Part shown: in pieces, positions 30,320 through 49,443 of the stretch
How the letters are laid out: every line of letters starts with the position of its first letter
How positions within the stretch are numbered: the stretch's first letter is position 1
Assembly: GCF_002982115.1 (NCBI RefSeq)
Contig: NZ_CP019980.1
Span: 1,000,001 to 1,064,000, forward strand
Length of the DNA: 64,000 nt
Direction: 5' to 3'
Origin: Lysinibacillus sphaericus
Lineage (GTDB): Bacteria; Bacillota; Bacilli; Bacillales_A; Planococcaceae
The notes under the pieces: generated by a model
Seen by the model: the letters and a program-made list of their open reading frames with translations, nothing else
Database searches by the model: none
What the model was told of the DNA's origin: nothing
Translations under genes and position numbers: made by a program

Positions 30320-30353
30320 ACCCCTTCTACTTGTCTTGAGAGAAGGGGTTTTC
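30320..30353 (+). terminator. SAM-controlled terminator before metN
   Basis: CCCCTTCT (30321-30328) pairs with AGAAGGGG (30341-30348), followed by TTTTCT. It ends 24 bp before the metN start codon. Confidence 0.88.
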
Positions 30354-30377
30354 TATATGAGAAAAGGAGTATTCGCT

Positions 30378-32064: not shown

Positions 32065-32131
32065 AAAGGTTATACCGGTTATTTACCGCTAACATATTAT
32101 TGTTTGAACAAAATAAAGGGAGTGTAGACAA

Positions 32132-32995
32132 ATGAAGAAGTTATTAGCAGGATTATTTTTATCAGTACTTGTACTAGCTTTAGCAGCTTGTGGTGCTGGT
32201 AACAAAGATGAAGCAGGTTCAACAACTGGAGATAAGGCAGACGACAGTGCAAAAACTGAAGAAAAAGTAACATTAAAAATAGGTGCTTCTAACACACCTC
32301 ACGCAGTTATTTTAGAAAAAGCAAAACCGATTTTAGCTAAAGAAGGCATTGACTTAGAAATCGAAACATACCAAGATTATGTATTACCAAACCAAGATTT
32401 AGATTCTGGAACAATTGATGCAAACTATTTCCAACATATCCCTTATTTAAATTTACAAATTAAAGATAATGACTATGATTTTGTAAATGCTGGCGGTGTA
32501 CACATCGAGCCAATCGGTATTTACTCTAAAAAATATAAATCTCTTGAAGACCTTCCTAAAGGTGCAACAATCTTATTATCTAATTCTGTTTCAGACCATG
32601 GTCGTATGCTGTCATTATTAGAAGCAAAAGGCTTAATTAAATTAAAAGATGGTATCGATAAAACTGCAGCTGAAATTAAAGATATTGTAGATAATCCGAA
32701 AGACTTTAAATTTGATGCGAATACTGCACCAGAACTACTTGTTCAAATGTTTGAAAACGAAGAAGGCGACGCAGTCCTTATCAACTCAAACTACGCAATC
32801 GATAATGGCTTAAACCCAATCAAAGATGCGATTGCTTTAGAAGATAAAGAATCTCCATATGTTAATATTATTGCAGTACGTGCTGGAGATGAAAATAAAC
32901 CAGAAATTAAAAAATTATTAGAAGTATTAACTTCTAAAGAAATCCAAGACTTCATTCTGGATGAATGGAAAGGCGCAGTAGTACCAGTTAAATAA
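32132..32995 (+). CDS. metQ: Methionine-binding lipoprotein
   Basis: 287 aa with a lipoprotein signal (LALAACGAG, lipidated Cys at ~20), then an NLPA/MetQ-type binding protein (LKIGASNTPHAVILEKAKPIL; DLDSGTIDANYFQHIPYL). Held on the outer membrane face by lipid, it hands methionine to MetN-MetP. Start behind AAAGGGAGTG. In B. subtilis metQ lies close to the suf operon; here about 21 kb of other genes separate them. Confidence 0.95.
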   Translation: MKKLLAGLFLSVLVLALAACGAGNKDEAGSTTGDKADDSAKTEEKVTLKIGASNTPHAVILEKAKPILAKEGIDLEIETYQDYVLPNQDLDSGTIDANYFQHIPYLNLQIKDNDYDFVNAGGVHIEPIGIYSKKYKSLEDLPKGATILLSNSVSDHGRMLSLLEAKGLIKLKDGIDKTAAEIKDIVDNPKDFKFDANTAPELLVQMFENEEGDAVLINSNYAIDNGLNPIKDAIALEDKESPYVNIIAVRAGDENKPEIKKLLEVLTSKEIQDFILDEWKGAVVPVK

Positions 32996-33589: not shown

Positions 33590-34915
33590 ATGGGGATTAA
33601 AATTGACTCACCAAAGTTAGCTTTATCGAAAAAAATCAAAACGAAACAGGCAAAAATTGGTGTAATCGGACTTGGCTATGTAGGATTACCACTCGCTATA
33701 GAAATGGTCAAAAAAGGGTTTCAAGTAATTGGTATTGATAAAAATAACGAAAAAATAGCTAAGCTAACAAATGGAGAAAGTTATATTGCTGATTTATCGG
33801 ATGCTGTTATCCAAGAGGTCTTAAAAGAAGAGAAGTTGGAAACGACTGCGGATTTTTCAAAGCTTGCAAGTGTAGATGTCATGATTATTTGTGTACCAAC
33901 TCCAACATCAGCAGATGGTACACCGAATATTTCTTACATTGAAGATGCGTCCAAATCAATCGCACAATATATTTCTGCCAATACACTAGTGATTCTTGAA
34001 AGTACGACGTACCCTGGAACGACTGAAGAAATCGTTCAACCAATTTTAGAAAAAAGTAATTATGTGATTGGGCAGGATATCTTTTTAACTTATTCCCCTG
34101 AGCGTGTTGATCCTGGAAATATTAATTTTACCGTTTCAAATACACCGAAAGTAGTCGGTGGTGTGACAGAAGCATGTTTAGAAATAGCAAAACTATTTTA
34201 TGAAACGATCATCAATACAAATGTTTTTCCTGTCTCTAACCCAAGGGTTGCAGAGATGGAGAAGTTACTGGAAAATACCTTTCGCCAAATCAATATCGCA
34301 CTTGTTAATGAGCTGAGCAAAATATGCTACAAAATGAATGTAGATATTTGGGAAGTAATCGAAGCTGCTTCGACAAAACCATATGGATTTATGCCGTTTA
34401 CACCTGGTCCAGGGGTAGGGGGGCATTGTATCCCTGTTGACCCTAAATATTTATTATGGGCAGGACAGCAACATGGTATTACGGCTTCATTAATTGAGGC
34501 GGCAGATAAAATTAATGATTCCATGCCGAGTTTTGTGGTTGAAAGACTGGAAAATTATCTTATTGACCAGAAGAAAGAGCTACGAGCTGGAAAGATTGTT
34601 GTTATTGGTGTCACGTATAAGCCAAATATTAATGATTTCCGTGAATCTCCTGCACTTCACGTCATCCAAGAATTATTGGAGAAGCAATATGATGTTATGG
34701 TTGTGGACCCATTTATCGAAACTTTTTCAGTCAACCAATACACACTTAATACTGTTGCATTATCAAAACAATTAATCGAAGAAGCAGAAGCTGTATTAAT
34801 TTTAACGAATCATGCAGAAATTGATTATGGATTGCTCGATCAATATGCTGCACTAATTTTTGATACACGGAATACCCATTTTTTATTTGCCAATAAAAAT
34901 TATCATAAATTGTAA
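33590..34915 (+). CDS. UDP-HexNAc 6-dehydrogenase (nucleotide-sugar dehydrogenase)
   Basis: 441 aa from the ATG at 33590 behind AAAGGGG; a TTG at 33584 is nearer and less likely. NAD fold with IGVIGLGYVGLPLAIEM (~24-40), SPERVDPG (~180), the central dimer helix, and GPGVGGHCIPVDPKYLL with the catalytic Cys (~277). These motifs fit the WbpA-type branch that oxidises UDP-GlcNAc (or UDP-ManNAc/GalNAc) to the uronic acid, more than UDP-glucose enzymes, but the substrate needs testing. As first gene of the locus it should supply a uronic-acid precursor to the synthases downstream. The next gene begins 16 bp later. Confidence 0.85.
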   Translation: MGIKIDSPKLALSKKIKTKQAKIGVIGLGYVGLPLAIEMVKKGFQVIGIDKNNEKIAKLTNGESYIADLSDAVIQEVLKEEKLETTADFSKLASVDVMIICVPTPTSADGTPNISYIEDASKSIAQYISANTLVILESTTYPGTTEEIVQPILEKSNYVIGQDIFLTYSPERVDPGNINFTVSNTPKVVGGVTEACLEIAKLFYETIINTNVFPVSNPRVAEMEKLLENTFRQINIALVNELSKICYKMNVDIWEVIEAASTKPYGFMPFTPGPGVGGHCIPVDPKYLLWAGQQHGITASLIEAADKINDSMPSFVVERLENYLIDQKKELRAGKIVVIGVTYKPNINDFRESPALHVIQELLEKQYDVMVVDPFIETFSVNQYTLNTVALSKQLIEEAEAVLILTNHAEIDYGLLDQYAALIFDTRNTHFLFANKNYHKL

Positions 34916-34931
34916 GGAGAACTGTGTGGAA

Positions 34932-36359
34932 ATGAAAAGACTAAAATTATGTAGTTTACTAGTCGCTTTGTTCATAGCAGGATGTCAATCCGAAACACAA
35001 AGTCAAGTTGCACCAGTAGATTCGTCGATTGAAATAAAAGAACATGATGGAACGATGAGCGATATTTTACATCATGCCAATATTCTTACCCCAAAAGTGG
35101 CTTTGACTTTTAATGGACTTGCAGATAATGAGACAATGCAAAAGCTTTTAAAGGTATTAGATCAAACGAACATCAAGGCAACGTTTTTTATTGAAGGTAT
35201 GCGTCTAGCACAAGAACCTGAATTGGTTAAGAACATATTGAGCAAAGGCCATGAAGTAGAAAACGGTACATTAACGTTCCCTGATATGGCAGATATAGAT
35301 TATGAAGAGACTTATAAAGAAATATATTTAACAAATCAAATTTTTGAAGAGCAATTAGGTTATACACCGAAGTATGTGAGAAGTCGTTCAGGGGACGCAA
35401 CAGACAATATGCGTTATGCGACAAATGCTCTTAATATGAAAGCTGTTGTAGAGGCATCTGTTAATCCGAAAGATCGTAATATGCAAAGTGCAGAGGAAAT
35501 GATGACGTATATTCGAAAGTATGTAGATAGTGGTTCAGTCATCCATTTAAATACGTATATTAATCCGGCCGTCATTGATGTTGTCCCGTTACTTGCACAG
35601 TTTGGCAAAGAAAAAGGCTTTACATTTTCTACGTTAACGGACGTATTTGAAAACGAATATTTGGTTAAATCATTAGAGGAAATTAAAGGCTACGATGCGA
35701 TAAAAATAAATCCAGCATACGAAAATGTCCAACCGCATGTCTATTATCGGAAAAATACAACAAAAAAAGAAATTGCTTTATCCTTTGATGACTGGGCAAG
35801 TGAGGAACGAACGAAGGAAATTTTAGATGTTTTGGATAAGTACAATATTCAATGTACATTTTTCTTAATCGGGAAGGGTGTTGAAAAAAACCCTCAATTA
35901 GCACGATTAATTGTAGATCGAGGACACGAAGTAGCGAGTCATTCTTATAATCATGTCGATGTAACAACGATGACACCAGAGGAGTTACAAGAAGACGTAT
36001 TGAAGGCACACCAAGCACTCACGTATGCCTTACAAGAATCACCGTTATTGTATTTTAGACCAAATCAAGGTGTTATTAATGAGGAGTCTGCTAAAATTAT
36101 TGCCGCTACTGGCGTTCAAACAATTGCCATGTACGATATTGCATCATTTGATTGGAACTTAGATTATACGGCACAAGATATTTATGATCGGGTTATGACT
36201 AGGGCAGCTCCAGGAAAGGTAGTGGTGATGCATATTTTAGACGGTACAAAAACAGTCGAAGCACTGCCATTAATTATTGAACAACTTCAAAAGCAAGGCT
36301 ATAGTTTTGCAAAAATGTCGACTTGGATTGAAGAAGATTCAAATAAGAAAGTGAATTGA
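34932..36359 (+). CDS. Lipoprotein with two NodB deacetylase domains, the first degenerate
   Basis: 475 aa from the ATG at 34932 (a GTG at 34926 is also possible; AAGGAGA precedes both). Lipobox LFIAGC, Cys ~19. Domain 1 (~50-235) has the fold, with KATFFIEG, but its TFDDG site reads TFNGLAD and the H-S-x3-H metal motif reads NGTLTF, so it should not bind metal. Domain 2 (~275-460) keeps SFDDWA, CTFFLIGKG, and ASHSYNHVDV with both His, so it looks active. Domain 1 may bind polymer. It probably deacetylates the nascent polysaccharide outside the membrane, like PgaB/IcaB. It ends three bases after the next gene's alternative TTG. Confidence 0.82.
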   Translation: MKRLKLCSLLVALFIAGCQSETQSQVAPVDSSIEIKEHDGTMSDILHHANILTPKVALTFNGLADNETMQKLLKVLDQTNIKATFFIEGMRLAQEPELVKNILSKGHEVENGTLTFPDMADIDYEETYKEIYLTNQIFEEQLGYTPKYVRSRSGDATDNMRYATNALNMKAVVEASVNPKDRNMQSAEEMMTYIRKYVDSGSVIHLNTYINPAVIDVVPLLAQFGKEKGFTFSTLTDVFENEYLVKSLEEIKGYDAIKINPAYENVQPHVYYRKNTTKKEIALSFDDWASEERTKEILDVLDKYNIQCTFFLIGKGVEKNPQLARLIVDRGHEVASHSYNHVDVTTMTPEELQEDVLKAHQALTYALQESPLLYFRPNQGVINEESAKIIAATGVQTIAMYDIASFDWNLDYTAQDIYDRVMTRAAPGKVVVMHILDGTKTVEALPLIIEQLQKQGYSFAKMSTWIEEDSNKKVN

Positions 36360-36364
36360 TAATC

Positions 36365-38233
36365 ATGAAAACGAAAAAAGAGATTTTAACAATGCCGCGC
36401 TCTGATCGACGTATCTTATCCAATATTCCTGACCCTGAAAATGTGCGGAGCCTCGTTAATCGTCGAGGGGCTTCGTACCAAACAGAAGGGGATATTGACC
36501 CTACAAATGTAAATGAAATTTATCGTTTACAGTTATTAAGTTTGCGTTATGAAACTGCATTTGAAGTGAACATTAAAAGAGCTAGACAAAAAAATCCTTA
36601 TCAATATTATGCTGAAGATATTTCGGTGACAGGTATCCTTGTTTATACGGATAGTGCAAATAGATTATTAGCTGATGAAATTGTTACGATGCAGTTCACA
36701 ATACCTGATGGAGCGATGCCTGAGGGTTATGAATCAAAAGTAAAGTTAAAAGCTAAAGTAGTCCGTCAATTTACAAAAGAGATAGATGGAAAAACGAGAT
36801 ACTACTATGCGTTTGAATTTTTGAATCCTTTAAATGAGTATTTAACGAAAAAACGTTGGGGACTTTCAATTTTTGTAGCGAGTTTATTTTTATTTATTGT
36901 TTCACTTATCGTTGTATTAATGCGTGCTGAAAGTGTCATCTATTTTAAGTTTAATAAGTTCTTATATTTATATAGTATAATCGCAGCAACATTTCTTCTA
37001 AGTAGATATTTGTTTGGTATTTTCTATAAGAATGTGCCAATCAATCCTCAATATGAACCTGGTGTTTCTATTATTATTCCAGTATTTAATGAAGAACAAT
37101 GGATTCATAGAACCATTTTAAGCTGTATAAATCAATATTACCCTGTGGATAAATTAGAAGTTATTGTCGTAGATGATTACTCTACAGATAGAACAGAGGA
37201 AGCCGCCAATAACATGATTGAGCTGATTCATAGGGAAGGTGGGCGTTTTAGAACAGAGGGACGTTTGAAATTTCATAAGCTACCTCAAAATGGGGGGAAG
37301 CGTGAAGCGTTAATAGCGGGAGTGCATTTGGCCAAACATGATTTAGTCGTTTTCGTCGATTCAGATAGCTTCTTAGAGCCTCACGCCATTCGGAATTTAG
37401 TACAACCTTTCCAAGATCCTAAAATGGGCGGTGTAGCAGGGAGAACAGAAGTAGAAAACAAGTTTACGAATGCTCTAACAAAACTACAAACGGTTCGATA
37501 TTATATAGCCTTTCGTATAATGAAAGCGGCTGAGTCTTGGTTTGACACCGTAACATGCTTATCGGGGCCACTTGCATGCTATCGTAAAGAGCTTATATTA
37601 AAAAATGAAACAGCATGGTTAAATCAAAAGTTTTTAGGGCAACCGGCAACATTTGGTGATGATCGTAGTATGACAAACTATATTTTAAAGACGCATCGCA
37701 CAGGCTATCAAGACAATGCAGTATGTTCTACGATTGTACCTTCAGATACAAAAGTCTTTTTGTCGCAACAAATGCGCTGGAAACGATCATGGTTACGAGA
37801 GTCGTTAAGAGCCTTTTTATTTATGTGGAAAAAAGAACCTTTTATGTTTTTGTTCTTTATTATTGGTTTAATTGTACCAATCGCAGCACCAATTGTCGTA
37901 GTTTACAATTTAATCTATGTGCCTATTATGCATGGGATATTTCCAACAACATTTTTAATGGGTCTATTGTTAATGGCAATGCTGATGAGCTTGGCTCACC
38001 TATTCTTTAGACGAAGTAAGTTGTGGATGTTTGGCTTTATATTTGTCCTTTTCTACGAATTTATTTTACTTTGGCAAATGCCTGTGGCGTGGGTGACATT
38101 TTGGAAATCAACTTGGGGTACAAGAGAAACACCTCAAGATGTATTGGCAAGGGAAAAGAAATTGGAAAAACAAAAGATTCGGAAATCCCGATTTTCAATG
38201 CTGAAAATAAGAAAAATGGGTGAGAAGGAATGA
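36365..38233 (+). CDS. PilZ domain fused to a hyaluronan-synthase/NodC-like GT2 polysaccharide synthase
   Basis: 622 aa. Residues ~55-160 form a PilZ domain with D-x-S-x-x-G (D85-I-S-V-T-G90) and a partial arginine motif, R72-A-R-Q-K76, in place of R-x3-R. Two membrane helices (~170-190, 200-220) follow. Then a processive GT2 domain: DD at ~270, DSD at 332-334, SGPLACYR, GDDR at 431-434 and QQMRW at 468-472, the set shared by HAS, NodC and cellulose synthase, and closest in wording to HAS. About four C-terminal helices form the channel. PilZ domains switch such enzymes on by binding c-di-GMP (BcsA, Alg44). Predicted to make and extrude a polymer across the membrane. It overlaps the next gene by ATGA. 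Confidence 0.82.
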   Translation: MKTKKEILTMPRSDRRILSNIPDPENVRSLVNRRGASYQTEGDIDPTNVNEIYRLQLLSLRYETAFEVNIKRARQKNPYQYYAEDISVTGILVYTDSANRLLADEIVTMQFTIPDGAMPEGYESKVKLKAKVVRQFTKEIDGKTRYYYAFEFLNPLNEYLTKKRWGLSIFVASLFLFIVSLIVVLMRAESVIYFKFNKFLYLYSIIAATFLLSRYLFGIFYKNVPINPQYEPGVSIIIPVFNEEQWIHRTILSCINQYYPVDKLEVIVVDDYSTDRTEEAANNMIELIHREGGRFRTEGRLKFHKLPQNGGKREALIAGVHLAKHDLVVFVDSDSFLEPHAIRNLVQPFQDPKMGGVAGRTEVENKFTNALTKLQTVRYYIAFRIMKAAESWFDTVTCLSGPLACYRKELILKNETAWLNQKFLGQPATFGDDRSMTNYILKTHRTGYQDNAVCSTIVPSDTKVFLSQQMRWKRSWLRESLRAFLFMWKKEPFMFLFFIIGLIVPIAAPIVVVYNLIYVPIMHGIFPTTFLMGLLLMAMLMSLAHLFFRRSKLWMFGFIFVLFYEFILLWQMPVAWVTFWKSTWGTRETPQDVLAREKKLEKQKIRKSRFSMLKIRKMGEKE

Positions 38234-39981
38234 GTGAAAAAAATGTTGTATTAAATCCAGCTAAAAAAAATCGCAGAAAATTACTTCGTTCTATTGCTCA
38301 ATTCGTTATCGTTGTATTTTTAGCGGTGATATTAATACGTGTCGTGTTCTTAACAGAAAAAAAAGAAGAGGAAACTGTTCCTCTAATTAATAAAGATGGT
38401 TTTATTGCATTATCCTACTTTGGCGTAAGTAGAAATGATTCTCCAAAATACGTGTCCAGAAAGAACTTGGAAAAACAGTTGGAGTTACTTGAAGGGCAAG
38501 GTTACAAAACGATTACCCAGCAAGATATATTAGATTTTTATGAAAAGAAAAAACCTCTACCAGAGAAAGCGTTGTTTTTATCATTTGAAGATGGACGCAC
38601 AGACTCAAGTATTTTCGCTCAAAACATTATGGAAGAGTTGAATTATAAAGCAACCATGTTTACGTATGCCAATAAGATGGATACGAGAGACAATAAATTT
38701 TTAAAACCTAAAGATTTATTACTGATGCAAAAAAGTGGGTTTTGGGAATTAGGTTCCAATGGATACCGTCTGACGTATATTAATATTTATAATGATCAAG
38801 GACAGTCATTAGGCATGATCGACGAGAATGATGTGCCAAATAAAACGACAATCGAATATTATAATCACTATTTAATGGACTTTATTCGCAATCAGTTTAT
38901 GATTCCGAGTGAAACGCGGAAAGAAATGGAGACGCGAATTAAAAAGGATTATAAATTAATGCACGATATTTATGAAGAAAAGTTAGATAAAGTGCCAAAG
39001 GCGTATGCCATTATGCATGCCAATGCACTTTACAATAATATGGACCCTTTAGTAGAGAGTATCAACGATACCGAAATTAAAAATACATTTCGTATGCATT
39101 TCAATTTAGAGCTAGGTGCCTATAATAACAAAGATGCAGATCTCTATAACTTAAGTCGATTACAAGTATCGCCATATTGGTCAACAAACCATGTGATGAT
39201 GAAAATCCGCCAAGCGAGTAAACAAAATGTAGCATTTGAAGTAGGGGATGCGCAACAAGCAAAAAAATGGTCCATTATTAATGGAGCCGCAGAATTTAAA
39301 AATAATGAAATCATTATAACGTCTGCACCATCCAGTGAAGGGCGCATTATTTTAAAGGATGCCTTGCCTAATCAATATAATGTCAATTTTGCTTTTAAAG
39401 GAAATGTAGTAGGGCAGCAATCTCTATATTTGAACTATGATGAAAAAAGCAATAGCTATATTCGCATTGCATTAATAGACAATGAGATCGTTGTATCAGA
39501 AAAATTGCCTGGAGCAAGTGTTGTTGAAAAGGAACGCTTGCAGTTAAATGATATTAAGTGGGATGAAGAACAATACGCATTTAATAAAGCAACTGTCTAT
39601 AACTATCAAGATACACAAAAAGGTTCGAGAATTGATGAAGATGAATATCCACGAAATTTAACACAAAAAAGAGTATTTAATATCGCTGTGAATAAAGATA
39701 AAATAGAGATAAATGTCGACGATGTATTATCGAAGACAATAAAGGTAAATCCAGTTATTAATGGGACTCAATTAGGAATCGGAGCAATGTATAGTAAAAA
39801 AGATACGACACACGAACAGTATGCAGATGATATTTACGATACATTGATCGATGATCTATTAATAACAGATGGAAACGAGACGACACTCTTTTCAAATCAA
39901 TATACGAATTTTGATAAAGTAAAGTATAAAACAACGACATTGTTTAATAACGTTGTAGACTTCTTTATTGAAACCTTCTAA
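38230..39981 (+). CDS. Membrane-anchored degenerate NodB-like protein with a beta-sandwich tail
   Basis: 583 aa. One membrane helix (~22-43, basic before it), so most of the chain is outside. Residues ~55-300 resemble a deacetylase fold (ALFLSFEDGRTDSS; YKATMFTYANKM), but the metal residues are altered: FEDG instead of FDDG, and GSNGYRLTY instead of GSHTx2H. Residues ~330-580 look like a lectin- or CBM-type beta sandwich (…SEGRIILKDAL…, …IGAMYSKKDTT…). It may guide or bind the polymer rather than hydrolyse it. Starts inside the synthase stop codon, so they are coupled. Confidence 0.65.
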   Translation: MSEKNVVLNPAKKNRRKLLRSIAQFVIVVFLAVILIRVVFLTEKKEEETVPLINKDGFIALSYFGVSRNDSPKYVSRKNLEKQLELLEGQGYKTITQQDILDFYEKKKPLPEKALFLSFEDGRTDSSIFAQNIMEELNYKATMFTYANKMDTRDNKFLKPKDLLLMQKSGFWELGSNGYRLTYINIYNDQGQSLGMIDENDVPNKTTIEYYNHYLMDFIRNQFMIPSETRKEMETRIKKDYKLMHDIYEEKLDKVPKAYAIMHANALYNNMDPLVESINDTEIKNTFRMHFNLELGAYNNKDADLYNLSRLQVSPYWSTNHVMMKIRQASKQNVAFEVGDAQQAKKWSIINGAAEFKNNEIIITSAPSSEGRIILKDALPNQYNVNFAFKGNVVGQQSLYLNYDEKSNSYIRIALIDNEIVVSEKLPGASVVEKERLQLNDIKWDEEQYAFNKATVYNYQDTQKGSRIDEDEYPRNLTQKRVFNIAVNKDKIEINVDDVLSKTIKVNPVINGTQLGIGAMYSKKDTTHEQYADDIYDTLIDDLLITDGNETTLFSNQYTNFDKVKYKTTTLFNNVVDFFIETF

Positions 39982-40003
39982 ACCGAGGGGAAGTTAGATT
40001 CAC

Positions 40004-41050
40004 GTGAGAAAATTTATTTGGTTTATCTGTATGGCACTACTAATTATCACAGCATGTAGTAATAGCAAAGAAGTTCCGGTTGAAGCAAAGGAAGAGCTAA
40101 AAAATAAAAATAAGTTGCAATTATCTATTTGGTTGCCCGAATGGCAAAAAAAATCAGCAATAGAAGACGTGAAAAATTCACAGCAGGGTTTACAGGATAT
40201 CCGTGTATTTGGCGCTTATTTCAACAGTAAAGATCAATTATTATTAACAGATAATGCGGTAGAGATGTTGCAACAAACACAGCAACAATTTCATGCCACA
40301 CATTTTGTGATGCTTACGTTAATCAATGACTATGTTACAGATAACGCCCCATCAGTTCAGAAGGATAGTAAGTTATTACATCGCCTGCTCCAAGATACTT
40401 CAACGAGGCAAAAGCATATCGATAATATATTGCAAATTGTTGAGCAATATCAGGTCAAGGGAATAGAAATTGATTATGAAAAGGTAGCGAAAGAGGATCT
40501 TCCGAAATATATACTTTTTTTAGAAGAGCTTTATCAACAGTTATCCAAAAAAAATATCACACTAAATGTTGTATTAGAACCGCGTTTTCCATTCGATATG
40601 AAATTGCCCGATGGCCCAAAGTATACTGTTATGGCGTACAATGTCCATGGTTATCATAGTGGACCTGGAGCAAAAGCAACATTCTCATTTTTAGATGACT
40701 TACTAAAAAAAATACAAAAGTCGAATCAAAACTTAGCCATTGCTTTTGCAACGGGTGGATTTAAATGGGCTGCACAAGGGAAAGCAGTTGCTTTAACAGA
40801 AATTGAGGCAGAACAACTTCTCGCCAAAATGAAAGTAAAGAAACAACGAGATCAAGCAAGCGGAGCTGCCTACTTCACTTATTCTGATGACAATAATGTA
40901 CGTCATGAGGTATGGTATGCGGATCAAGAGACACTTGAAAAATGGATTAGCTATGTCCAACAAAAAAGCTACCATGAGGTAGTATTATGGCGCGCTGGCG
41001 GTTTAAGTTCAGATACATTAAAGTGGATTGACAAGCAATCAATCAAATGA
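40004..41050 (+). CDS. GH18-like lipoprotein
   Basis: 348 aa from a GTG at 40004 behind GAGGGGAAG. Lipobox LIITAC, Cys ~18. The body has a TIM-barrel outline with the strand VKGIEIDYEKV (~147-157) at the place of the GH18 signature D-G-x-D-x-D-x-E: the last D and E are kept, the first positions are changed. Later elements (TVMAYNVHG, GAAYFTYSDD, VVLWRAGG) fit barrel strands of GH18/YaaH-like proteins. It may cleave or bind an amino-sugar polymer at the cell surface, a common helper role in synthase-dependent loci. Last gene before a 313-bp structured spacer. Confidence 0.65.
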   Translation: MRKFIWFICMALLIITACSNSKEVPVEAKEELKNKNKLQLSIWLPEWQKKSAIEDVKNSQQGLQDIRVFGAYFNSKDQLLLTDNAVEMLQQTQQQFHATHFVMLTLINDYVTDNAPSVQKDSKLLHRLLQDTSTRQKHIDNILQIVEQYQVKGIEIDYEKVAKEDLPKYILFLEELYQQLSKKNITLNVVLEPRFPFDMKLPDGPKYTVMAYNVHGYHSGPGAKATFSFLDDLLKKIQKSNQNLAIAFATGGFKWAAQGKAVALTEIEAEQLLAKMKVKKQRDQASGAAYFTYSDDNNVRHEVWYADQETLEKWISYVQQKSYHEVVLWRAGGLSSDTLKWIDKQSIK

Positions 41051-41112
41051 AGGAAGGATAGATAAGTCAATTAAACGTATTTTTTACTGTAGTTTGAAAT
41101 AGCGAAAAGCTA

Positions 41113-41118
41113 TATAAT
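41113..41118 (+). promoter_or_regulatory. TATAAT, possible -10 box for the second half of the locus
   Basis: A perfect TATAAT about 11 bp before the structured RNA segment. The matching -35 is not clear (a TTGAAA at 41094 is too close, TTTACT at 41084 too far), so this call is weak. Confidence 0.35.
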
Positions 41119-41128
41119 GATTAAATAT

Positions 41129-41244
41129 GACAAGCCCCACCATTTAACTTTTTGTGGGCGAGCATCGAGCATCTTCCATATGGCATGTGCCATATGGAGG
41201 GGGCTTGTCTGACTCGCTTTCCTATAAAAGTTTATTTGGTGGGG
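41129..41244 (+). ncRNA. Candidate structured leader RNA with mutually exclusive stems
   Basis: GACAAGCCCC (41129-41138) pairs perfectly with GGGGCTTGTC (41200-41209). Inside is a perfect 10-bp hairpin, CCATATGGCA/TGCCATATGG (41176-41197). The CCCC segment can instead pair as CCCCACCA (41135-41142) with TGGTGGGG (41237-41244), or as CCCAC with GTGGG (41154-41158). GCGAG (41158-41162) can also pair with CTCGC (41213-41217). Competing stems suggest a switch or an inverted-repeat DNA element. It matches no riboswitch class I can recall, including c-di-GMP-I and -II. It lies 120 bp before the degenerate GGDEF gene. Confidence 0.55.
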
Positions 41245-41363
41245 TTTACCTTGTTTATTAATAATTATGTACGGTTAGTACAAGGTTTATTTTTGTTCCT
41301 ATCGGGCACTAAACAAGTAAGGCTTTGAATTATTTCGAGGAGAGCTACAAGGAGGTAGGAATA

Positions 41364-42248
41364 ATGAATGAAGTAATTTTCGCAAAAGATATAATGCTAG
41401 AACAAGATGTTAAAAAATATTTTGAAATTATGCTTGAAAGTGCTATTCGTTCACATATGACGATTACCACAATTTTTTTAAAGTGTGTACAGAGTAGCTC
41501 TTCAGAAGTAAATCAAAGCAATGTAAATGCTCAAATTACTGATTTTTTAACGGAAAATATTCGGAAGACGGATTTACTCTTCCAATTGGCAGATGGAGAG
41601 CATTGGGGCATTATTTTTTTACAAAGTAGCGATGTTGAAGCGAATGCATTTTTAAAAAGAATCTTTTATTTACTAAAGAAAGATACAACGCTAGAAAGTC
41701 GCGTTGCCTTAAAAGCTTCTATAACAGAAATACGTAATAATCAGATTAACTTTGAAATACTAGTAGAAAAAAATAAAGCATTACTGGCTGATAGCAATCA
41801 ACAGCAATGGTGGATTGAACAGATAGAGGATTATCGTTTACAATCCATTGAACTTGTAAAAGTGAGTATTATTGAACAAAATGCTATTTTTAGAAAAGTG
41901 TTAGAAACGACTTTAAATTCCATGGATATCGCTAATTTTACTTTTGATGTCACAGCATATGAAGATGGTTATAGTTTTTTACAATCTAATACTTATCAAT
42001 CCGGGCATTTGCATTTAATTATTATGAATGATATTTTACCGCGCAATAATGGCTTAGAAATTTTACACAGCTTACGAACAATGCCGAACGAAAAGCGATT
42101 CCTCATTTACATGATGTCTGAACGTAACTCAGAGATCGCCGCACTCAATGCATATGAAGGTGGCGTAGATGAATTTATAGTTAAACCGTTTAACTTACGT
42201 TTATTAGAGGCAAAAATTAAACGAACTTTTGCGAGGTATTGGCAATGA
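41364..42248 (+). CDS. Degenerate GGDEF domain plus degenerate receiver domain protein
   Basis: 294 aa from the ATG at 41364 behind AAGGAGGTAGG. Residues ~10-140 follow the GGDEF fold: IRKTDLLFQLADGEHWGIIFLQ sits where R-x-D-x-x-R-x-GGDEF-x-I lies, with the signature reading ADGEHW. Residues ~165-290 are a receiver domain (VKVSIIEQNAIFRKVLETTL; VDEFIVKPFNLRLLEAKI) in which the phospho-acceptor position reads Asn in MNDILP, one before an Asp; the Lys-Pro pair is kept. Both domains therefore look unable to do normal chemistry. It may bind c-di-GMP or GTP, or act as a scaffold for the PilZ synthase or the second GT2. Overlaps the next gene by ATGA. Confidence 0.68.
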   Translation: MNEVIFAKDIMLEQDVKKYFEIMLESAIRSHMTITTIFLKCVQSSSSEVNQSNVNAQITDFLTENIRKTDLLFQLADGEHWGIIFLQSSDVEANAFLKRIFYLLKKDTTLESRVALKASITEIRNNQINFEILVEKNKALLADSNQQQWWIEQIEDYRLQSIELVKVSIIEQNAIFRKVLETTLNSMDIANFTFDVTAYEDGYSFLQSNTYQSGHLHLIIMNDILPRNNGLEILHSLRTMPNEKRFLIYMMSERNSEIAALNAYEGGVDEFIVKPFNLRLLEAKIKRTFARYWQ

Positions 42249-43291
42249 TAGACTTATCGCTTGATTTTCTTTTATCCGTAATAGCTATACTGTTCATCGT
42301 TCTGTGCGGCTTCATGATGTATATATTTTATCAACGTCAAAGTGAAGTGCGTTTTAAAAAATCGAGAGCTATCTATTTAAAAGACTACTCACAGCTTTGG
42401 TATGAATATCTTTTTAATAATGAAATTTTTTCAGTGGTGCTTATACCACGTGGCAAGCCGCAAGTTCAGGCAATCGAAATGATTTTTTCATCCTATTTAA
42501 AGAACATTACGAATGATGATATGAGATGGAAAATGAAGAATTTTTCCAATCAGTATTTAAAGACATTTTATGAAAATGATTTAATGAATAAACGTTGGAG
42601 CATTCGCATGAACGCATTATATCGTATCGCCGATTTGCAGCTCGATGAATTGCTCGATGCTTGTAAAAAATTAGAGACAACGAAATACTCTAAGGAAGAG
42701 TTTTTTCAATTGCTTAAAATATATTCTTTATTTCAGCCAGAATTATTTATTCAAAAAATAAAGGCCCCCAATGCAAATTACTCTGAAAGTGAATATAGAA
42801 GATTATTCGTTTTATTAGAGGAAGATATATTTATGCGATTTTTTGATGAGTTTACGAGCTGGTCAATGAGCATTCAATTTGCTGTAATCGATACGGCTGC
42901 GGCCAAAAAAAATATGCAATATATTGAGAAATTAGAGCAATTATTAACGAATGAAAATGATGAAATTAAAATACGCGCGCTAAAGGGCCTGTTTGAAATT
43001 GGTGTAATTGAAAATATCAATCCGTATATTCCTTTCGTAACGTCACATTTATGGGAAGTACGCTTAATGGTAGGGAAGATATTTAAATATGTCCCCTTGT
43101 CCTATTCTTATCCCTATTTAGAACAGCTTCTTCAAGATGAAAATTGGTGGGTTCGGTCTCAAGCTGCGAAGACGATTGCTGAAGATCGTGACGGATTAGA
43201 GAAATTAAAAGAGTTTATTTCATATTCTACTGATCATTATGCAGTGGAGATGGCACAAGAAACAATAATGAGAAAGCAGGGAACGAGATGA
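42245..43291 (+). CDS. Membrane-anchored HEAT-repeat protein
   Basis: 348 aa from the ATG at 42245, which overlaps the previous stop. One N-terminal membrane helix (~7-30) then a wholly helical cytoplasmic region. Repeat-like helix pairs are visible: WSIRMNALYRIADLQ (~115-130), DEIKIRALKGLFEIGV (~238-253), LWEVRLMVGKIFKYV (~267-281) and NWWVRSQAAKTIAED (~298-312), with the W-x-V-R pattern of HEAT repeats. HEAT solenoids bind proteins; tight coupling to the GGDEF-like gene before it and the GT2 after it suggests an adaptor between regulator and synthase. No enzyme motif. I do not recognise a named family. Confidence 0.7.
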   Translation: MIDLSLDFLLSVIAILFIVLCGFMMYIFYQRQSEVRFKKSRAIYLKDYSQLWYEYLFNNEIFSVVLIPRGKPQVQAIEMIFSSYLKNITNDDMRWKMKNFSNQYLKTFYENDLMNKRWSIRMNALYRIADLQLDELLDACKKLETTKYSKEEFFQLLKIYSLFQPELFIQKIKAPNANYSESEYRRLFVLLEEDIFMRFFDEFTSWSMSIQFAVIDTAAAKKNMQYIEKLEQLLTNENDEIKIRALKGLFEIGVIENINPYIPFVTSHLWEVRLMVGKIFKYVPLSYSYPYLEQLLQDENWWVRSQAAKTIAEDRDGLEKLKEFISYSTDHYAVEMAQETIMRKQGTR

Positions 43292-44709
43292 AAATTTTAC
43301 ATTACTCCATGTTGTTTTTTGGCGGCGTAATTGTATTTTATATGCTGTTTGTTATTGTTTCATATTGCACCATGTTAATTATCGCAATGCTTGATTTGCG
43401 TAAGCGATATCGTTTAGACCCTTCGGAGTATGATGATGCGCATATAGATGCCTTTTATTCCAAGCCTGTGTCCTTACTAGTTCCTGCCTATAACGAAGAG
43501 GTAGGGGTAGTAGATACCGTCTATTCATTGCTTAATTTACGTTATCCGCAAACAGAAATTATTATTATTAATGATGGTTCCACTGACAATACTCTACAAA
43601 CGGTCATTAAGCACTTTCAGATGAAACCTGTAAATAAAATTATAAAAACAAATATTCATACGAAGCAAGTTATCCAAATTTATGAATCAGAAATTTATAT
43701 GAATTGTATATTGGTAGATAAAGTGAATGGCGGCAAGGCTGATGCATTGAATGTTGGTATCAACGTATCACAATACCCGTATTTTTGTTCCATTGATGGG
43801 GATTCCATTTTAGATGAAAAAGCATTGCTTCGTGTAATGAAGCCGATTGTTTTATCTGATGGAGAAGTGATTGCAGCTGGGGGCAATATACGTATCGCCA
43901 ACGGAGCGAAAATGCAACTTGGCTCGATTTATGATATGCGATTACCTAGTAATTATTTAGTTATCATGCAAATAATTGAATATTTGCGAGCCTTTTTAAT
44001 GGGGCGAATTGCATTAAGTAAATTTAATCTTGTGTTGATTATTTCAGGTGCATTTAGTGTCTTTTCAAAAAAATGGGCTGTTGAAGCAGGCGGCTATTCG
44101 ACCAATATTATTGGTGAAGACATGGAGCTCGTTGTCAATATTCATCGACTTATTAAAGAGAAAAAAGAAAATAAACGAATTGAATTTGTGCCAGACCCTG
44201 TTTGTTGGACAGAAGCGCCGCATACATTAAGTGTTTTGCGAAATCAGCGCAGACGTTGGCACCAAGGGATGTTTGAAAGTCTTTGGAAACATAAGAAAAT
44301 GACGTTAAATCCACGATACGGTTTGATTGGTATGGTGTCGTTTCCGTATTTTTGGCTTGTGGAATGTTTAGGACCTGTTGTAGAACTAGGTGGCTATATC
44401 TATATTATTATCGCGTTTTTCTTAGGGCAAATTTATTATGAAATGGCGATTTTGTTATTATTGCTTTTTGTTATTTATGGTGTTATTTTTTCCGTTGCTT
44501 CCGTATTATTTGAGGCTTGGAGCATGAATACGTATCCAAGAAAGAGAGACTTGTTACGTATGATTACTTTAGCGTTTACTGAAATTTTTTGGTATCGCCC
44601 ACTTACACTACTATGGCGTTGTGAAGGATTAATTCGATTTGTACGTAGAAAGAGTGAATGGGGAAATATGAAGCGTGTCGGGATTGCTGAAAAGGAGAAA
44701 AGTGTATGA
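43288..44709 (+). CDS. Second processive-type GT2 glycosyltransferase
   Basis: 473 aa from an ATG overlapping the previous stop. One N-terminal helix (~8-32), then the GT2 domain: SLLVPAYNEE (~60-70), INDGSTDN (~93), DGD (~171), GED in IIGEDMEL (~275) and QRRRW (~320), followed by three or four C-terminal helices. The Q-x-x-R-W motif marks processive synthases of the cellulose synthase/PgaC kind. Unlike the first GT2 it lacks a PilZ domain; the GGDEF/HEAT proteins encoded just before it may take that role. It overlaps the next gene by ATGA. Confidence 0.85.
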   Translation: MKILHYSMLFFGGVIVFYMLFVIVSYCTMLIIAMLDLRKRYRLDPSEYDDAHIDAFYSKPVSLLVPAYNEEVGVVDTVYSLLNLRYPQTEIIIINDGSTDNTLQTVIKHFQMKPVNKIIKTNIHTKQVIQIYESEIYMNCILVDKVNGGKADALNVGINVSQYPYFCSIDGDSILDEKALLRVMKPIVLSDGEVIAAGGNIRIANGAKMQLGSIYDMRLPSNYLVIMQIIEYLRAFLMGRIALSKFNLVLIISGAFSVFSKKWAVEAGGYSTNIIGEDMELVVNIHRLIKEKKENKRIEFVPDPVCWTEAPHTLSVLRNQRRRWHQGMFESLWKHKKMTLNPRYGLIGMVSFPYFWLVECLGPVVELGGYIYIIIAFFLGQIYYEMAILLLLLFVIYGVIFSVASVLFEAWSMNTYPRKRDLLRMITLAFTEIFWYRPLTLLWRCEGLIRFVRRKSEWGNMKRVGIAEKEKSV

Positions 44710-47700
44710 AGCGAATATATATAGGAATTATCATTACATTAATGCTCATTATTACTCCGATTATTATTTGGTACTTGGATGATAATACCCCGCTTAACGT
44801 AGCTATTTTAGATAAAACAGTTCCAAATGAAACATATCGCGAACATCTCGGCGTGAATTGGTTTTTAAATCATTACAAGTATACGATGGACAATCAGCCT
44901 TATGATTTAGTGGACAGTTATTTCGGTACGCAACCAGATGACAAATTAAAAAGTGTAACGGAAAAAAAATTCCCAACAGACTACAGTAACTATGATGTGA
45001 TTTATTTAGCAGATACGTATGGTGTGTATAAAGATGATTTAGGACAAGAAAAAAGGCTAGGACAGCGCTCAGAAAAAATTGTCGGTGGTTTAGAGATGGA
45101 AGAATGGCAGTCCATTGTATCTCGACTAGCTAGTAATAAAAAAAGTATGTTAATAGCCGAGTACAATACATTTGCTTCGCCAACAACAGAAGCTGTTCGA
45201 AAAGAGCTTCAAGATTATTTGGGAATTTCATGGTCAGGATGGATTGGGCGTTATTTCGATGAGCTCGATTATCATAAAAATTTAGAAATACCACAATGGA
45301 TCGTAGATGAATACGGAGACGATTGGTCCTATAAAGGCGGAGGATTTATCGTATTTAATGAAATTACAGAAAAGCTCGTAGTATTAGAGTTGGACAAACA
45401 TATTAAAACGGCAGGGATTGAGCTTCAATTTACGGAAGCGGGTAAGCAATTTTTTAATACCTCTAGCAGTGCAAAATATGAGTATTGGTTTGATATTATT
45501 ACGCCGAAATATGCTGAAGATGCATTAGCCAACTATAAGTGGGATTTAACGAAAGAAGGGTCAAAGTTATTAGAAGACAATCATATTCCACAACAATTTG
45601 CAGCGATTGTCTCGCAGGATAAACGTTATACAACGAGCTATTATTTTGCAGGAGACTTCAATGATATGGGGCGTTTACCTACGCTATCTAAAGTCAAAGG
45701 TTTACCTACTCTTTATAAATATGCTGAGAAGTTTGCTGACAGCTCTTTTTATTGGTCTATTTACATACCAGTTATGCACAAAGTATTTGAGACATTTGAG
45801 AAAAAAGAAGTGCAAGAAACAAATCATGCAAACAAATTAAACTATAATGCACGTGTTCAAGGTGAAACGTTTGAAGTGTTACAAGATGGAAAATGGGAGC
45901 CGATAACATTCAAAGGTGTCAATATTGGTATGGGGAAACCAGGTGCATTTCCTGGGGAAGCAGCAATCACTGAAGAAGAGTATTATCGTTGGTTTAATCA
46001 AATTGCAGCTATGAATGCGAATACGATACGGGTATATACATTACACCCGCCAGGCTTCTATCGAGCGCTGGCAAAGTACAACGAAGAAAATCCTAATAAG
46101 CCACTATACGTTTTACATGGTGTTTGGATTAATGAAGAAGGCTTATCACAATCACTTGATGCTTATGATGCAACTACGTTAAAGGATTTTCAACATGAAA
46201 TGAAGCGCATGGTTGATGTTATTCACGGTAATATTTATGTGAAGACTGTAACGGGACATGCATCCGGCTTATACGATGTAGATGTTTCAAAATATGTAAT
46301 TGGTTGGGTGCTTGGGATTGAGTGGTATCCACATATGGTCGTCGGAACAAATGAAAAGCATGCTAATTTAGGGCAATATAATGGAACATATTTCGAAACG
46401 AAAAATGCGACACCTTTTGAGCATTGGCTTGCTGAGCAGATGGACATGATTACAGTTTATGAGAAAGAAAAATACAATTGGATGCGACCGATGAGTTTTA
46501 CCAACTGGGTAACAACAGATTTACTAGAGCATCCATCCGAACCATCAGAAGATGAAGATTTAGTAGGCGTTAACCCGAATGTCATCTTTACAAAAGGGGA
46601 AATGCAAACACCAGGACAATTTGCTTCATATCATGTCTATCCTTATTACCCAGATTTCTTTAATTTCGATAAAGATTATTTAAATTATGTAGATTTCCGT
46701 GGTCAAAAAAATAGTTATGCAGGCTATTTAAATGAATTGCATAAGGCGCATACAATGCCTGTACTTATCGCGGAATTCGGCATTCCAGCATCGCGTGGAA
46801 TGACACATGAAAATGTCTACGGTTGGAATCAGGGGCACATGTCTGAAAAGAAACAAGGTGAAACATTGCAGCATTTGTATGAAGATATCATGCATGAAGG
46901 CTTGCTTGGTGGGCTTGTATTTACATGGCAGGATGAGTGGTTTAAACGGACGTGGAATACAATGGATTACGACGACCCGAATCGTCGACCGTTTTGGTCC
47001 AATGCTCAAACCAATGAACAGCAATTCGGTCTAATGAGCTTTGATCGAAATAAAGTAAAAGTGGATGGAAAGCTAAATGATTGGGAAGAAGGTACACAAT
47101 TATATAAAACTTCGCCTTCTAGCTCGACTGATTTTGCTGTGGATTACGATGAAAAGTATGTGTATATGAAGTTGAAGAGTGATGAGATAAAAACAGCATC
47201 ACCACGTATTTTACTAGACGTAGTACCAGAGCAAGGCAATACATCTGCAACAACTATTAAAAATATAACATTTTCAAATGGTGTTGACTTTATTGTTGAG
47301 TTAAATAAAAATAGCGATTCGCGAGTTGTCATTGATGAATACTACGATTTCTATGATTATTTCTATGGACATCGATTAAGCATGATTCCTCCACGCATGA
47401 AAGCAGCGGTAAAAAATAGTGGCAAGTTTGCGCCGATTTATTATGTTTTAAATAAACAACTGTACTTACCAGAACAAAAAAAGACGACAGACTTTAGCTT
47501 TTATGAAACAGGTAAATTGCTACAAGGAAATGCAAATCCTGAAGCGTCTAACTATAATTCACTCGTTGACTACACATGGACAGATGATAATGTGATCGAG
47601 CTACGAATACCTTGGCTTCTGCTACAATCCAAAGATCCAAGTCAGCGAGAGTTTATGGGAGATTTATATGCAAATGGTGAAACAGCGTCAGTTAAAGTGG

Positions 47701-47888
47701 ATAATATTTTTGTTGGTGTAGTATTTGTCGATGAAGAAGGAAAGGTAGTCCAATCTTTACCGAAGTCTACGAATAATGTATTGCCAGCATTGGATTCATA
47801 TAGTTGGGATACTTGGCAACAACCGAAGTACAATGAACGCTTAAAACAATCTTATTATATTTTACAAAAAGTATTTAAGGACGATTAA
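44706..47888 (+). CDS. Large membrane-anchored glycoside hydrolase-like protein
   Basis: 1060 aa. One N-terminal membrane helix (~5-24), the rest outside. Residues ~30-220 resemble a glutamine-amidotransferase-like/ThuA-like alpha-beta domain (NVAILDKTVPNETYREHLGV; LADTYGVYK). Residues ~400-770 form a TIM barrel of GH2/GH5 type: FKGVNIGMGKPG, NTIRVYTLHPPGFYRAL, a likely acid/base Glu in VLGIEWYPH (~538), a likely nucleophile Glu in LIAEFGIPASRG (~690), and TWQDEWFKR. Residues ~780-1060 look like a DOMON/CBM9-type beta sandwich starting DGKLNDWEEG. It may trim or transglycosylate the polymer made by the GT2 just upstream. It ends the locus; a repeat element follows. Confidence 0.7.
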   Translation: MKRIYIGIIITLMLIITPIIIWYLDDNTPLNVAILDKTVPNETYREHLGVNWFLNHYKYTMDNQPYDLVDSYFGTQPDDKLKSVTEKKFPTDYSNYDVIYLADTYGVYKDDLGQEKRLGQRSEKIVGGLEMEEWQSIVSRLASNKKSMLIAEYNTFASPTTEAVRKELQDYLGISWSGWIGRYFDELDYHKNLEIPQWIVDEYGDDWSYKGGGFIVFNEITEKLVVLELDKHIKTAGIELQFTEAGKQFFNTSSSAKYEYWFDIITPKYAEDALANYKWDLTKEGSKLLEDNHIPQQFAAIVSQDKRYTTSYYFAGDFNDMGRLPTLSKVKGLPTLYKYAEKFADSSFYWSIYIPVMHKVFETFEKKEVQETNHANKLNYNARVQGETFEVLQDGKWEPITFKGVNIGMGKPGAFPGEAAITEEEYYRWFNQIAAMNANTIRVYTLHPPGFYRALAKYNEENPNKPLYVLHGVWINEEGLSQSLDAYDATTLKDFQHEMKRMVDVIHGNIYVKTVTGHASGLYDVDVSKYVIGWVLGIEWYPHMVVGTNEKHANLGQYNGTYFETKNATPFEHWLAEQMDMITVYEKEKYNWMRPMSFTNWVTTDLLEHPSEPSEDEDLVGVNPNVIFTKGEMQTPGQFASYHVYPYYPDFFNFDKDYLNYVDFRGQKNSYAGYLNELHKAHTMPVLIAEFGIPASRGMTHENVYGWNQGHMSEKKQGETLQHLYEDIMHEGLLGGLVFTWQDEWFKRTWNTMDYDDPNRRPFWSNAQTNEQQFGLMSFDRNKVKVDGKLNDWEEGTQLYKTSPSSSTDFAVDYDEKYVYMKLKSDEIKTASPRILLDVVPEQGNTSATTIKNITFSNGVDFIVELNKNSDSRVVIDEYYDFYDYFYGHRLSMIPPRMKAAVKNSGKFAPIYYVLNKQLYLPEQKKTTDFSFYETGKLLQGNANPEASNYNSLVDYTWTDDNVIELRIPWLLLQSKDPSQREFMGDLYANGETASVKVDNIFVGVVFVDEEGKVVQSLPKSTNNVLPALDSYSWDTWQQPKYNERLKQSYYILQKVFKDD

Positions 47889-47917
47889 CGCATACACTTG
47901 AAGCATTGGATAAACAG

Positions 47918-48240
47918 AAAAAGTGGCTGGGACATAACTAAAAAAAATAAGAAACAGACGAAAGATGTTCATAATTTTTTGCTGTATGTAGACCTTAGCT
48001 ATTCTTGCTTTTGCAATAAAAAAAATTAGAAGTGTTCACTAGTTGTTGGTAGCGAAGGCGGTGACTCCTGCGGGAACAGCACATAATGTTAGACGCAACA
48101 GACCGCGCGTAGCGAGGGTTGCGGCTTACGGTGTGCCCGCGGAAAGCACCGTCGTAGCGGACAACAACGGCAAAGCAAAAAAGTGTTAGATTGATGGCAG
48201 TCAATCTAACACTTTTTCTCTTTTGTCTCAGCCACTTTTT
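47918..48240. repeat. 323-bp composite repeat with 17-bp terminal inverted repeats
   Basis: Ends are AAAAAGTGGCTGGGACA (47918-47934) and TGTCTCAGCCACTTTTT (48224-48240), complementary at 16 of 17 positions. Inside are GTGACTCCTGCGGGAACAGC (about 48060), a GC-rich arm with GCGGAAAGC, and a perfect terminator-like palindrome (48177-48217). No ORF. Partial relatives lie at 7234-7290, 28297-28314 and 53161-53200. It behaves like a non-coding (MITE- or BIME-like) element and probably ends transcription of the exopolysaccharide locus. Confidence 0.75.
48177..48217. terminator. Terminator-like palindrome, copy 2 of the dispersed repeat
   Basis: AAAAAGTGTTAGATTGA pairs with TCAATCTAACACTTTTT around a 6-base loop, inside the 323-bp element. 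Both flanks carry A or T runs, so it can work on either strand; the convergent GltC-like gene ends nearby. Confidence 0.75.
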
Positions 48241-48293
48241 TTACTGTGAATGTTGTTGTCGCACCGTCGTCGGACGCATCTCAATTGTTTAGG

Positions 48294-49196: not shown

Positions 49197-49443
49197 TGGA
49201 TATTCACCTCTATTAATCGAAAAATCCGATTGATTATACTTTAATTATATAATATTTAGTATATAAATAGTCTGAAAAAATAGCGTAGTGCGAAATAAAA
49301 ATATGATAAATTACAGAAAAGACAATTGAAATTGAAAGATTTAACACAATCTTTTAATGATTATATTAAAAAAGGGAAATTACACTTATTCTGTTAGTAA
49401 TTTGAGAGTTGGGTCTTGTAAGATGTATATGAGGTGGAAATTT

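Follow-up and report, generated by a model that had tools for sequence, protein, structure and literature searches.

A conserved PilZ-GT2 operon of the Bacillales and its separately inherited neighbour in Lysinibacillus sphaericus: two putative exopolysaccharide modules

Described relatives and organization of the locus

Several described systems build a polysaccharide around a processive glycosyltransferase of family GT2: class 1 hyaluronan synthases (HAS) encoded by hasAB operons, the NodBC pair for lipochitooligosaccharide, the Pga/Ica systems for poly-N-acetylglucosamine and, as presented in PMC5422440 and PMC4125290, ydaJ-N of Bacillus subtilis and pssA-E of Listeria. The survey of synthase-dependent operons in PMC7112194 includes pel, pga/ica, cellulose and alginate. 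The present analysis concerns nine genes carried by a window of 64,000 nucleotides (nt) of contig NZ_CP019980.1, within the 4.68-Mb genome of Lysinibacillus sphaericus. An original prediction made from this window proposed one exopolysaccharide locus with a uridine diphosphate (UDP)-N-acetylhexosamine (HexNAc) dehydrogenase, a deacetylase and second-messenger-type parts. These components are supported by our results; the single locus is not, since the genes form two separately inherited modules, module A (genes 1-5, positions 33590-41050) and module B (genes 6-9, 41364-47888). Our preferred reading, held tentatively, is that two synthase-dependent exopolysaccharide modules lie side by side, with a division of labour in which module A would use both HexNAc and uronate donors and module B would make a second HexNAc polymer.

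All nine open reading frames are on the + strand and span positions 33590-47888, as predicted, and Pfam concurs with the predicted domain labels in seven cases and, for gene 6, with that of the receiver half. In module A, gene 1 (33590..34915) encodes a WecC/Cap5O-like UDP-HexNAc 6-dehydrogenase with the motif GGHCIPVDP (TIGR03026, 1.1e-135, over cut-off), gene 2 (34932..36359) a lipoprotein with tandem NodB domains of family CE4 (PF01522, two stretches), gene 3 (36365..38233) a processive GT2 of the HAS/NodC group (PF00535) that carries a PilZ domain at its N terminus (PF07238), gene 4 (38230..39981) a membrane-anchored pseudo-CE4 protein (SFEDG, GSNG) whose C-terminal half is weakly lectin-like, and gene 5 (40004..41050) a lipoprotein of glycoside hydrolase family GH18 that keeps its catalytic Glu (GIEIDYE; PF00704, 3.9e-15). 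In module B, gene 6 (41364..42248) encodes a degenerate GGDEF domain with its I-site (RKTD) kept, joined to a pseudo-receiver with Asn at the phosphoacceptor position (PF00072 and alignment), gene 7 (42245..43291) a HEAT-repeat protein (PF13646/PF02985) with an N-terminal membrane anchor recognized by eye, gene 8 (43288..44709) a PgaC/IcaA-like processive GT2 (TIGR03937, 2.7e-38, 132 bits, the cut-off of 422 not being reached) and gene 9 (44706..47888) a hydrolase of 1060 residues resembling clan GH-A. The predicted ATGA-type overlaps are found at four of the eight junctions (38230, 42245, 43288 and 44706, with the starts chosen here) and not at the others. A purine-rich ribosome site precedes most starts; none is clear before that of the PilZ-GT2 gene.

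Like class 1 HAS, module A associates a processive GT2 with a UDP-uronate-forming dehydrogenase, and its synthase carries GDDR, QQxRW, WGTR and most acceptor-site residues. However, its dehydrogenase is of the UDP-HexNAc and not of the UDP-glucose type, it adds a PilZ domain, a deacetylase, a pseudo-CE4 and a GH18, and its synthase, with Asn at the HAS His174 site, shows no greater overall similarity to HAS1 than to NodC. As in NodBC, a NodB-type deacetylase stands beside a NodC-related GT2 (29-31% identical in the region compared), but module A adds the dehydrogenase, PilZ and GH18 and has GDD and WGTR where NodC has GED and WLSR. The combination of a GT2, a PgaB-like CE4 and a glycoside hydrolase recalls Pga/Ica, and PgaB is the model nearest to gene 4 (2.7e-15, under cut-off; solved PgaB chains, 9.6e-12). 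Nevertheless, gene 4 fails as an intact PgaB/IcaB-type deacetylase (Glu for the base Asp, motif His residues lost), gene 2 is a different CE4, the GH18 is separate, a dehydrogenase is added, and no PgaD/IcaD-like gene was called, none having been searched for by profile. Module B resembles ydaJ-N and pssA-E, GT2 operons with a degenerate GGDEF I-site receptor according to PMC5422440 and PMC4125290, but includes a HEAT protein, a pseudo-receiver and the 1060-residue hydrolase, and none of its four proteins was called as BcsB-like by Pfam. Within the comparisons made here, the predicted distinctness of the layout thus holds against Pga/Ica, ydaJ-N and Pss; the Pel and Bcs layouts are not known to match it either.

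No description of the module A operon was found among the matches listed in open-licence literature. In PMC7284689, hasA genes, named with hasC in one sentence, are attributed to Lysinibacillus mangiferihumi M-GX18 and others; that mention discusses no operon, PilZ or HexNAc dehydrogenase. This hasA is possibly the same gene as the module A synthase, since the synthase of M-GX18 (locus L103) is 99-100% identical to that of the window. For one copy of module A on a Paenibacillus plasmid, RefSeq gives generic names. Module A is regarded as a putative synthase-dependent exopolysaccharide system with a new combination of parts.

Conservation of module A and nature of its product

A scan of one genome per species revealed 364 relatives, of which the best 80 loci were examined; a second set comprised 29 fetched 20-kb loci, one of which (L036, a broken copy) is absent from the PilZ-GT2 alignment. 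Among the 80 loci, the PilZ-GT2 gene is accompanied by the pseudo-CE4 (n = 80), NodB (n = 77), dehydrogenase (n = 76) and GH18 (n = 72) genes; in 66 loci, the complete set of five shares one strand and falls within 5 kb of the GT2. The recurrence next to the PilZ-GT2 of four partners that the query did not contain, in full in these 66 loci, exceeds chance. Hosts include Lysinibacillus, Metasolibacillus, Bhargavaea, Kurthia, Brevibacillus, Cohnella, Paenibacillus, Saccharibacillus and Bacillus-like genera; the neighbourhood of a PilZ-GT2 and a UDP-HexNAc dehydrogenase recurs across the Bacillales, and the synthase is 60-71% identical (best segments) from Lysinibacillus to Paenibacillus and Brevibacillus. 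At the class level, 29 of 398 genomes (9 of 145 genera) have a PilZ-GT2 match at E <= 1e-60, three of them much weaker (5.5e-62 to 1.1e-69), leaving 26 close ones. In L036, L181, G163 and G005, the PilZ-GT2 is broken or split, its match being fragmented or interrupted by in-frame stops, and module A may therefore be decaying in some lineages. Three Metasolibacillus genomes (genus g10; G064: L048/L049; G065: L050; G066: L051) carry two PilZ-GT2 copies; among second copies, L049 has no dehydrogenase, NodB or GH18 call and L050 no GH18 call.

The closest solved relatives of the synthase are hyaluronan synthases, both with the family profile (8.1e-44 for HAS1, 8smm; 1.1e-43 for 7sp7, the Chlorella virus enzyme, CvHAS) and with the single sequence (1.2e-36). 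HAS functional sites were taken from the passages of PMC12987647 and PMC11750622 that describe them and mapped with a chain numbering one higher than that of these papers, Tyr91 and Glu93 falling outside the comparison. At these sites, the module A GT2 has K315, DSD 335-337, C401, FGDDR 433-437, QQxRW, S478, R481 and WGTR 587-590, and the class 1 motifs DxD, GDD, QxxRW and gating-loop WGT[RS] are present. Over 73 columns contrasting HAS1 with PgaC/IcaA, module A agrees with HAS1 at 28 and with PgaC/IcaA at 14.

The dehydrogenase points to a HexNAc-derived uronate. For gene 1, the nearest equivalog models are those of UDP-N-acetylmannosamine (ManNAc) dehydrogenase (287-288 bits), TviB (238) and UDP-glucose dehydrogenase (152-198), all under their cut-offs, and the closest solved chain is Cap5O. 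UDP-glucose dehydrogenases (HasB) have an active site of the GGSCFPKD type. The UDP-HexNAc dehydrogenase signature GGHCI..DP is found instead in all 77 rows (76 loci and the window), which led us to reject a UDP-glucose dehydrogenase, and hence true hyaluronan; glucuronic acid is unlikely in the product because the operon dehydrogenase is of the UDP-HexNAc type. Two types occur: 15 are WecC/Cap5O-like (Lysinibacillus, Metasolibacillus and Bacillus ndiopicus) and the other 61, judged by motif, TviB-like, the window enzyme being 31-37% identical to the other type. The gene lies before NodB in 14 loci, between NodB and the GT2 in 52 and after the GT2 in six (four unplaced, NodB not being placed). 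This association of differing HexNAc dehydrogenases, in differing positions, with the same synthase suggests a shared need for UDP-HexNAc-uronate. UDP-ManNAc is probably available in the cell, since the genome encodes one WecB-type epimerase elsewhere. Moreover, 64 of the 80 loci have no further match of either GT2 profile in the stretch covered, other glycosyltransferase families not having been searched. Because the conserved core thus holds no second glycosyltransferase, the PilZ-GT2 itself most likely consumes UDP-HexNAc-uronate, giving a polymer of HexNAc and N-acetylhexosaminuronate that would then be partly de-N-acetylated. We still infer, as originally proposed, both the uronic acid and the partial deacetylation.

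Several observations weigh against this reading or restrict it. Some partners are not called in every locus (dehydrogenase in 4 of 80, GH18 in 8 and NodB in 3, some contigs being short), and a further GT2-profile match exists in 16 loci, 10 being module B and 6 another GT2 located 6-7 kb away. None of the eight dehydrogenases scanned among the 76 passes an NCBIfam equivalog cut-off; therefore, the substrates are not fixed exactly. Regarding the synthase, processive GT2s in general share Lys177, DxD and QxxRW, the HAS Arg256 position is occupied by Lys, and the uracil-pocket site of CvHAS His174 (Trp in HAS1) is Asn (N312), as in NodC; H174A is described in PMC12987647 as essentially inactive in CvHAS. 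Of 98 columns separating NodC from HAS1, module A follows HAS1 at 19 and NodC at 18, and a tree of 20 GT2 sequences, nine of them from module A, does not place module A with HAS1 alone. Membership of HAS as a whole is thus unsupported by the column count and the His174 site, and the near-equal agreement with HAS1 and NodC rather indicates that the module A synthases form a branch of their own within the HAS/NodC group. In four Paenibacillus loci (L134, L138, L162 and L178), a gene-8-like GT2 (scores 328-342) lies 6-7 kb from the synthase without the hydrolase, and an additional dehydrogenase match is found upstream; a neighbouring set for another polymer is perhaps present there.

The same data leave some room for a less probable but serious alternative, in which module A makes a chitin- or poly-N-acetylglucosamine-like homopolymer of N-acetylglucosamine (GlcNAc), deacetylated by NodB, while the dehydrogenase serves another glycan such as teichuronic acid. 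NodC is the best NCBIfam model for the synthase (8.7e-55, under cut-off, no HAS model being among the matches), the synthase resembles NodC at the uracil pocket and is as close to it overall as to HAS1, and NodB and GH18 enzymes are, as families, known to act on GlcNAc polymers. A dehydrogenase serving another glycan, however, would not readily explain why one of the UDP-HexNAc kind accompanies the synthase in 76 of 80 loci, as two types and in three positions, nor why the conserved core has no other glycosyltransferase that the GT2 profiles detect.

The extracellular parts of module A are conserved in a way that leaves a single NodB active site. The lipoprotein of gene 2 had been described as a tandem NodB protein; two domains are indeed present, but the first is a conserved pseudoenzyme ([TS]FNG in all 28 rows having it), whereas the second is intact, all 30 rows having [TS]FDD and HxxxH. 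Taken as a whole with its two domains, gene 2 reaches 267.7 bits against the PdaB sporulation model, whose cut-off is 237.4 bits. In gene 4, which Pfam matches weakly to Polysacc_deac_1, all 28 rows have FEDG instead of FDDG and Asn instead of the first motif His; over 40 rows, D121, N177 and G178 are invariant and E120 is found in 90% or more. Its C-terminal region gave weak matches in the 40 homologues to laminin-G (n = 4), 3-keto-disaccharide-hydrolase (n = 3) and concanavalin-type (n = 1) domains. In gene 5, the GH18 catalytic D.E is kept in 23 of 23 rows, and the closest solved chains are a cortical-lytic enzyme, YaaH and YdhD. According to our preferred reading, the dehydrogenase would convert UDP-HexNAc into UDP-HexNAc-uronate, which the PilZ-GT2 would polymerise, most likely with UDP-GlcNAc, the chain leaving through a channel of the synthase itself. 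Once outside, the chain would lose some N-acetyl groups to the active NodB domain; the pseudo-CE4 of gene 4 may hold or guide it, and the GH18 lipoprotein may trim or release it.

Putative second-messenger control and components of module B

Control by cyclic di-GMP (c-di-GMP) through PilZ had been proposed for the locus. This messenger is very likely present in the host because the genome has 19 GGDEF matches, and the PilZ domain exceeds its Pfam cut-off, but the stated basis is weakened by the absence of the first Arg of RxxxR. The match begins at profile position 7 or 10, beyond the site of RxxxR in the PilZ profile. The alignment of named loci comprises 79 loci and the window, L181 (split synthase) being absent. 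In none of these 79 loci is an in-register RxxxR found before strand 1; RxxxxR is present in 49, and the last Arg and the DRR arm in all 79. Off-register RxxxR strings occur in 5 of the 80 rows, and [DN]xSxxG in 79. The second Arg of a canonical PilZ encoded in the same genome (RREYVR, DISAGG) aligns with the conserved Arg of module A (hhalign probability 62); a search of solved structures with the PilZ profile gave no useful match. In the 29-row set, [DN]xSxxG is found in 23 rows, being replaced by ExSxxG in L040 and L062 and lost in L034, L035, L041 and L042; the last Arg is lost in four rows. These four g17 loci (L034, L035, L041 and L042) have lost both the second Arg and DxSxxG, which also argues against PilZ gating there, whereas L056 and L061, likewise g17, retain the pocket motifs. 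In the four loci, the synthase and four partners remain despite the loss, which may correspond to constitutive synthesis. Without that first Arg, control of module A by c-di-GMP is possible but would be non-canonical: PilZ would act as the gate of the synthase, with c-di-GMP as the probable ligand and an unusual mode of binding.

A more ambitious interpretation, which we consider rather doubtful in its full form, is that module A represents a new type of synthase-dependent exopolysaccharide system, distributed over the Bacillales. A PilZ-gated dual-substrate synthase built like HAS would make a hyaluronan analogue composed entirely of HexNAc units, with GlcNAc and HexNAc-uronate in alternation; the conserved pseudo-deacetylase would be devoted to export or length control, and c-di-GMP or another signal would be read by a PilZ pocket of variant type (DRRG arm, RY, DxSxTG, MPEG).

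Gene 6 of module B is a better candidate receptor than the module A PilZ. Its description as a degenerate GGDEF-receiver protein is borne out by four related proteins of 539-555 residues that have GGE[EQ]F and an Asp receiver at matching positions, although Pfam does not detect its GGDEF domain and hhalign against three GGDEF domains of the same genome is in register but weak (probability 6.8%). We compared 14 short sequences (the window, five from the 80 loci and eight from nine chosen genomes, two weak matches being left out). All 14 have lost GGDEF and all 14 keep the I-site RxxD, five residues before the broken GGDEF; the receiver phosphoacceptor is Asn in 11, Ser in two and Asp in one. 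As RxxD is also found in the four intact GGDEF-receiver relatives, what counts is that it was kept after the loss of GGDEF. Precedents are given by YdaK, reported as a degenerate GGDEF receptor of c-di-GMP needing R202 and D205 of its I-site, and likewise by PssE (PMC5422440, PMC4125290). By analogy with these two proteins, c-di-GMP binding at the gene 6 I-site would switch module B on.

The GT2 of gene 8 is PgaC-like by NCBIfam and by alignment, and would make the second HexNAc polymer with its HEAT partner. Gene 9 has no Pfam match by itself; against solved structures, it gave none at E <= 1, and the family search returned one chance-level chain. However, E539 (in GIEW) and E690 (in AEFG) are invariant in 20 rows; motifs of this kind are typical of the acid/base and nucleophile of clan GH-A. 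This assignment agrees with weak Pfam matches to GH113 (n = 3) and GH5 (n = 1) among the 20 homologues, which also gave DUF4120 (n = 2) and MBG (n = 1). The first ~370 residues of gene 9 are a separate protein in some genomes. As a GH-A-like enzyme, this large protein would cut the module B polymer.

Separate inheritance of the modules and biological meaning

The distribution of the two modules in an order-wide set of 261 genomes demonstrates that they are inherited separately and do not constitute one locus. Matches to the module B hydrolase occur in 124 genomes and to the HEAT protein in 128, against 45 for the PilZ-GT2, of which one is broken. Hydrolase and PilZ-GT2 occur together in 27 genomes, which is not significantly above independence (Fisher p = 0.07); 18 genomes have the PilZ-GT2 without the hydrolase and 97 the hydrolase without the PilZ-GT2. 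Among the 80 loci, the hydrolase is found only in Lysinibacillus and Bhargavaea. Furthermore, genes 5 and 6 are separated by a 313-bp non-coding gap (41051-41363) with a strong hairpin (41132..41247; 116 nt, near-perfect, without T-run; -65.8 kcal/mol, z -8.6 for the 131-nt stretch folded), of which two weak partial copies exist elsewhere in the genome. The separate occurrence and this gap led us to reject a single nine-gene operon. It also appears improbable that the nine genes are one functional system in which two synthases make one polymer. Such a system would agree with the common strand and with the linkage of the module A synthase and module B hydrolase, at most 12 kb apart in 16 of the 27 genomes having both, but not with the many genomes that have only one of them, nor with the order of the modules: module B is downstream of module A only in the window, G039 and G055, and upstream in the remaining 13 of the 16 linked genomes. 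One more genome, G049, is not among these 16: its hydrolase and PilZ-GT2 are on different contigs, but the PilZ-GT2 contig ends ~5 kb upstream, so the two may still be linked.

Finally, a role of module A in modifying a cell-wall or spore-coat glycan instead of making an exopolysaccharide is very improbable: the PdaB score of gene 2, the closeness of gene 5 to cortical-lytic and YaaH-type enzymes and the mostly spore-forming host genera agree with it, but a synthase of the HAS/NodC group, a UDP-uronate dehydrogenase (both, as families, foreign to cortex modification) and a PilZ fusion do not.

Around the locus, a promoter and terminator scan gave no excess over shuffles (65 versus 68.3 and 9 versus 8.7, respectively). 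Riboswitch control was rejected: at gathering thresholds, Rfam found only an S-adenosylmethionine (SAM) riboswitch (30190-30294) away from the locus; the genes that follow this riboswitch (30336-32995) were recognized by eye as a methionine-type ABC transporter set. Directly 3′ of module B lies a dispersed repeat of ~330 bp (47915-48245) with 82 full or partial matches in the genome and the size of a miniature inverted-repeat transposable element. Shortly downstream (49357-53119), inspection by eye indicates a large membrane-bound sensor histidine kinase that includes a receiver and, after it, a response regulator.

Overall, the compact five-gene operon, with a synthase 60-71% identical between distant genera, implies a matrix polymer common to many soil- and plant-associated genera, to which no assigned product was found in the literature searched. 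If the dual-substrate reading is true, this polymer would be a natural hyaluronan-like biopolymer, and its synthase a new case of one GT2 site handling two donors. In module B, the likely c-di-GMP switch would be an I-site protein whose receiver is dead.

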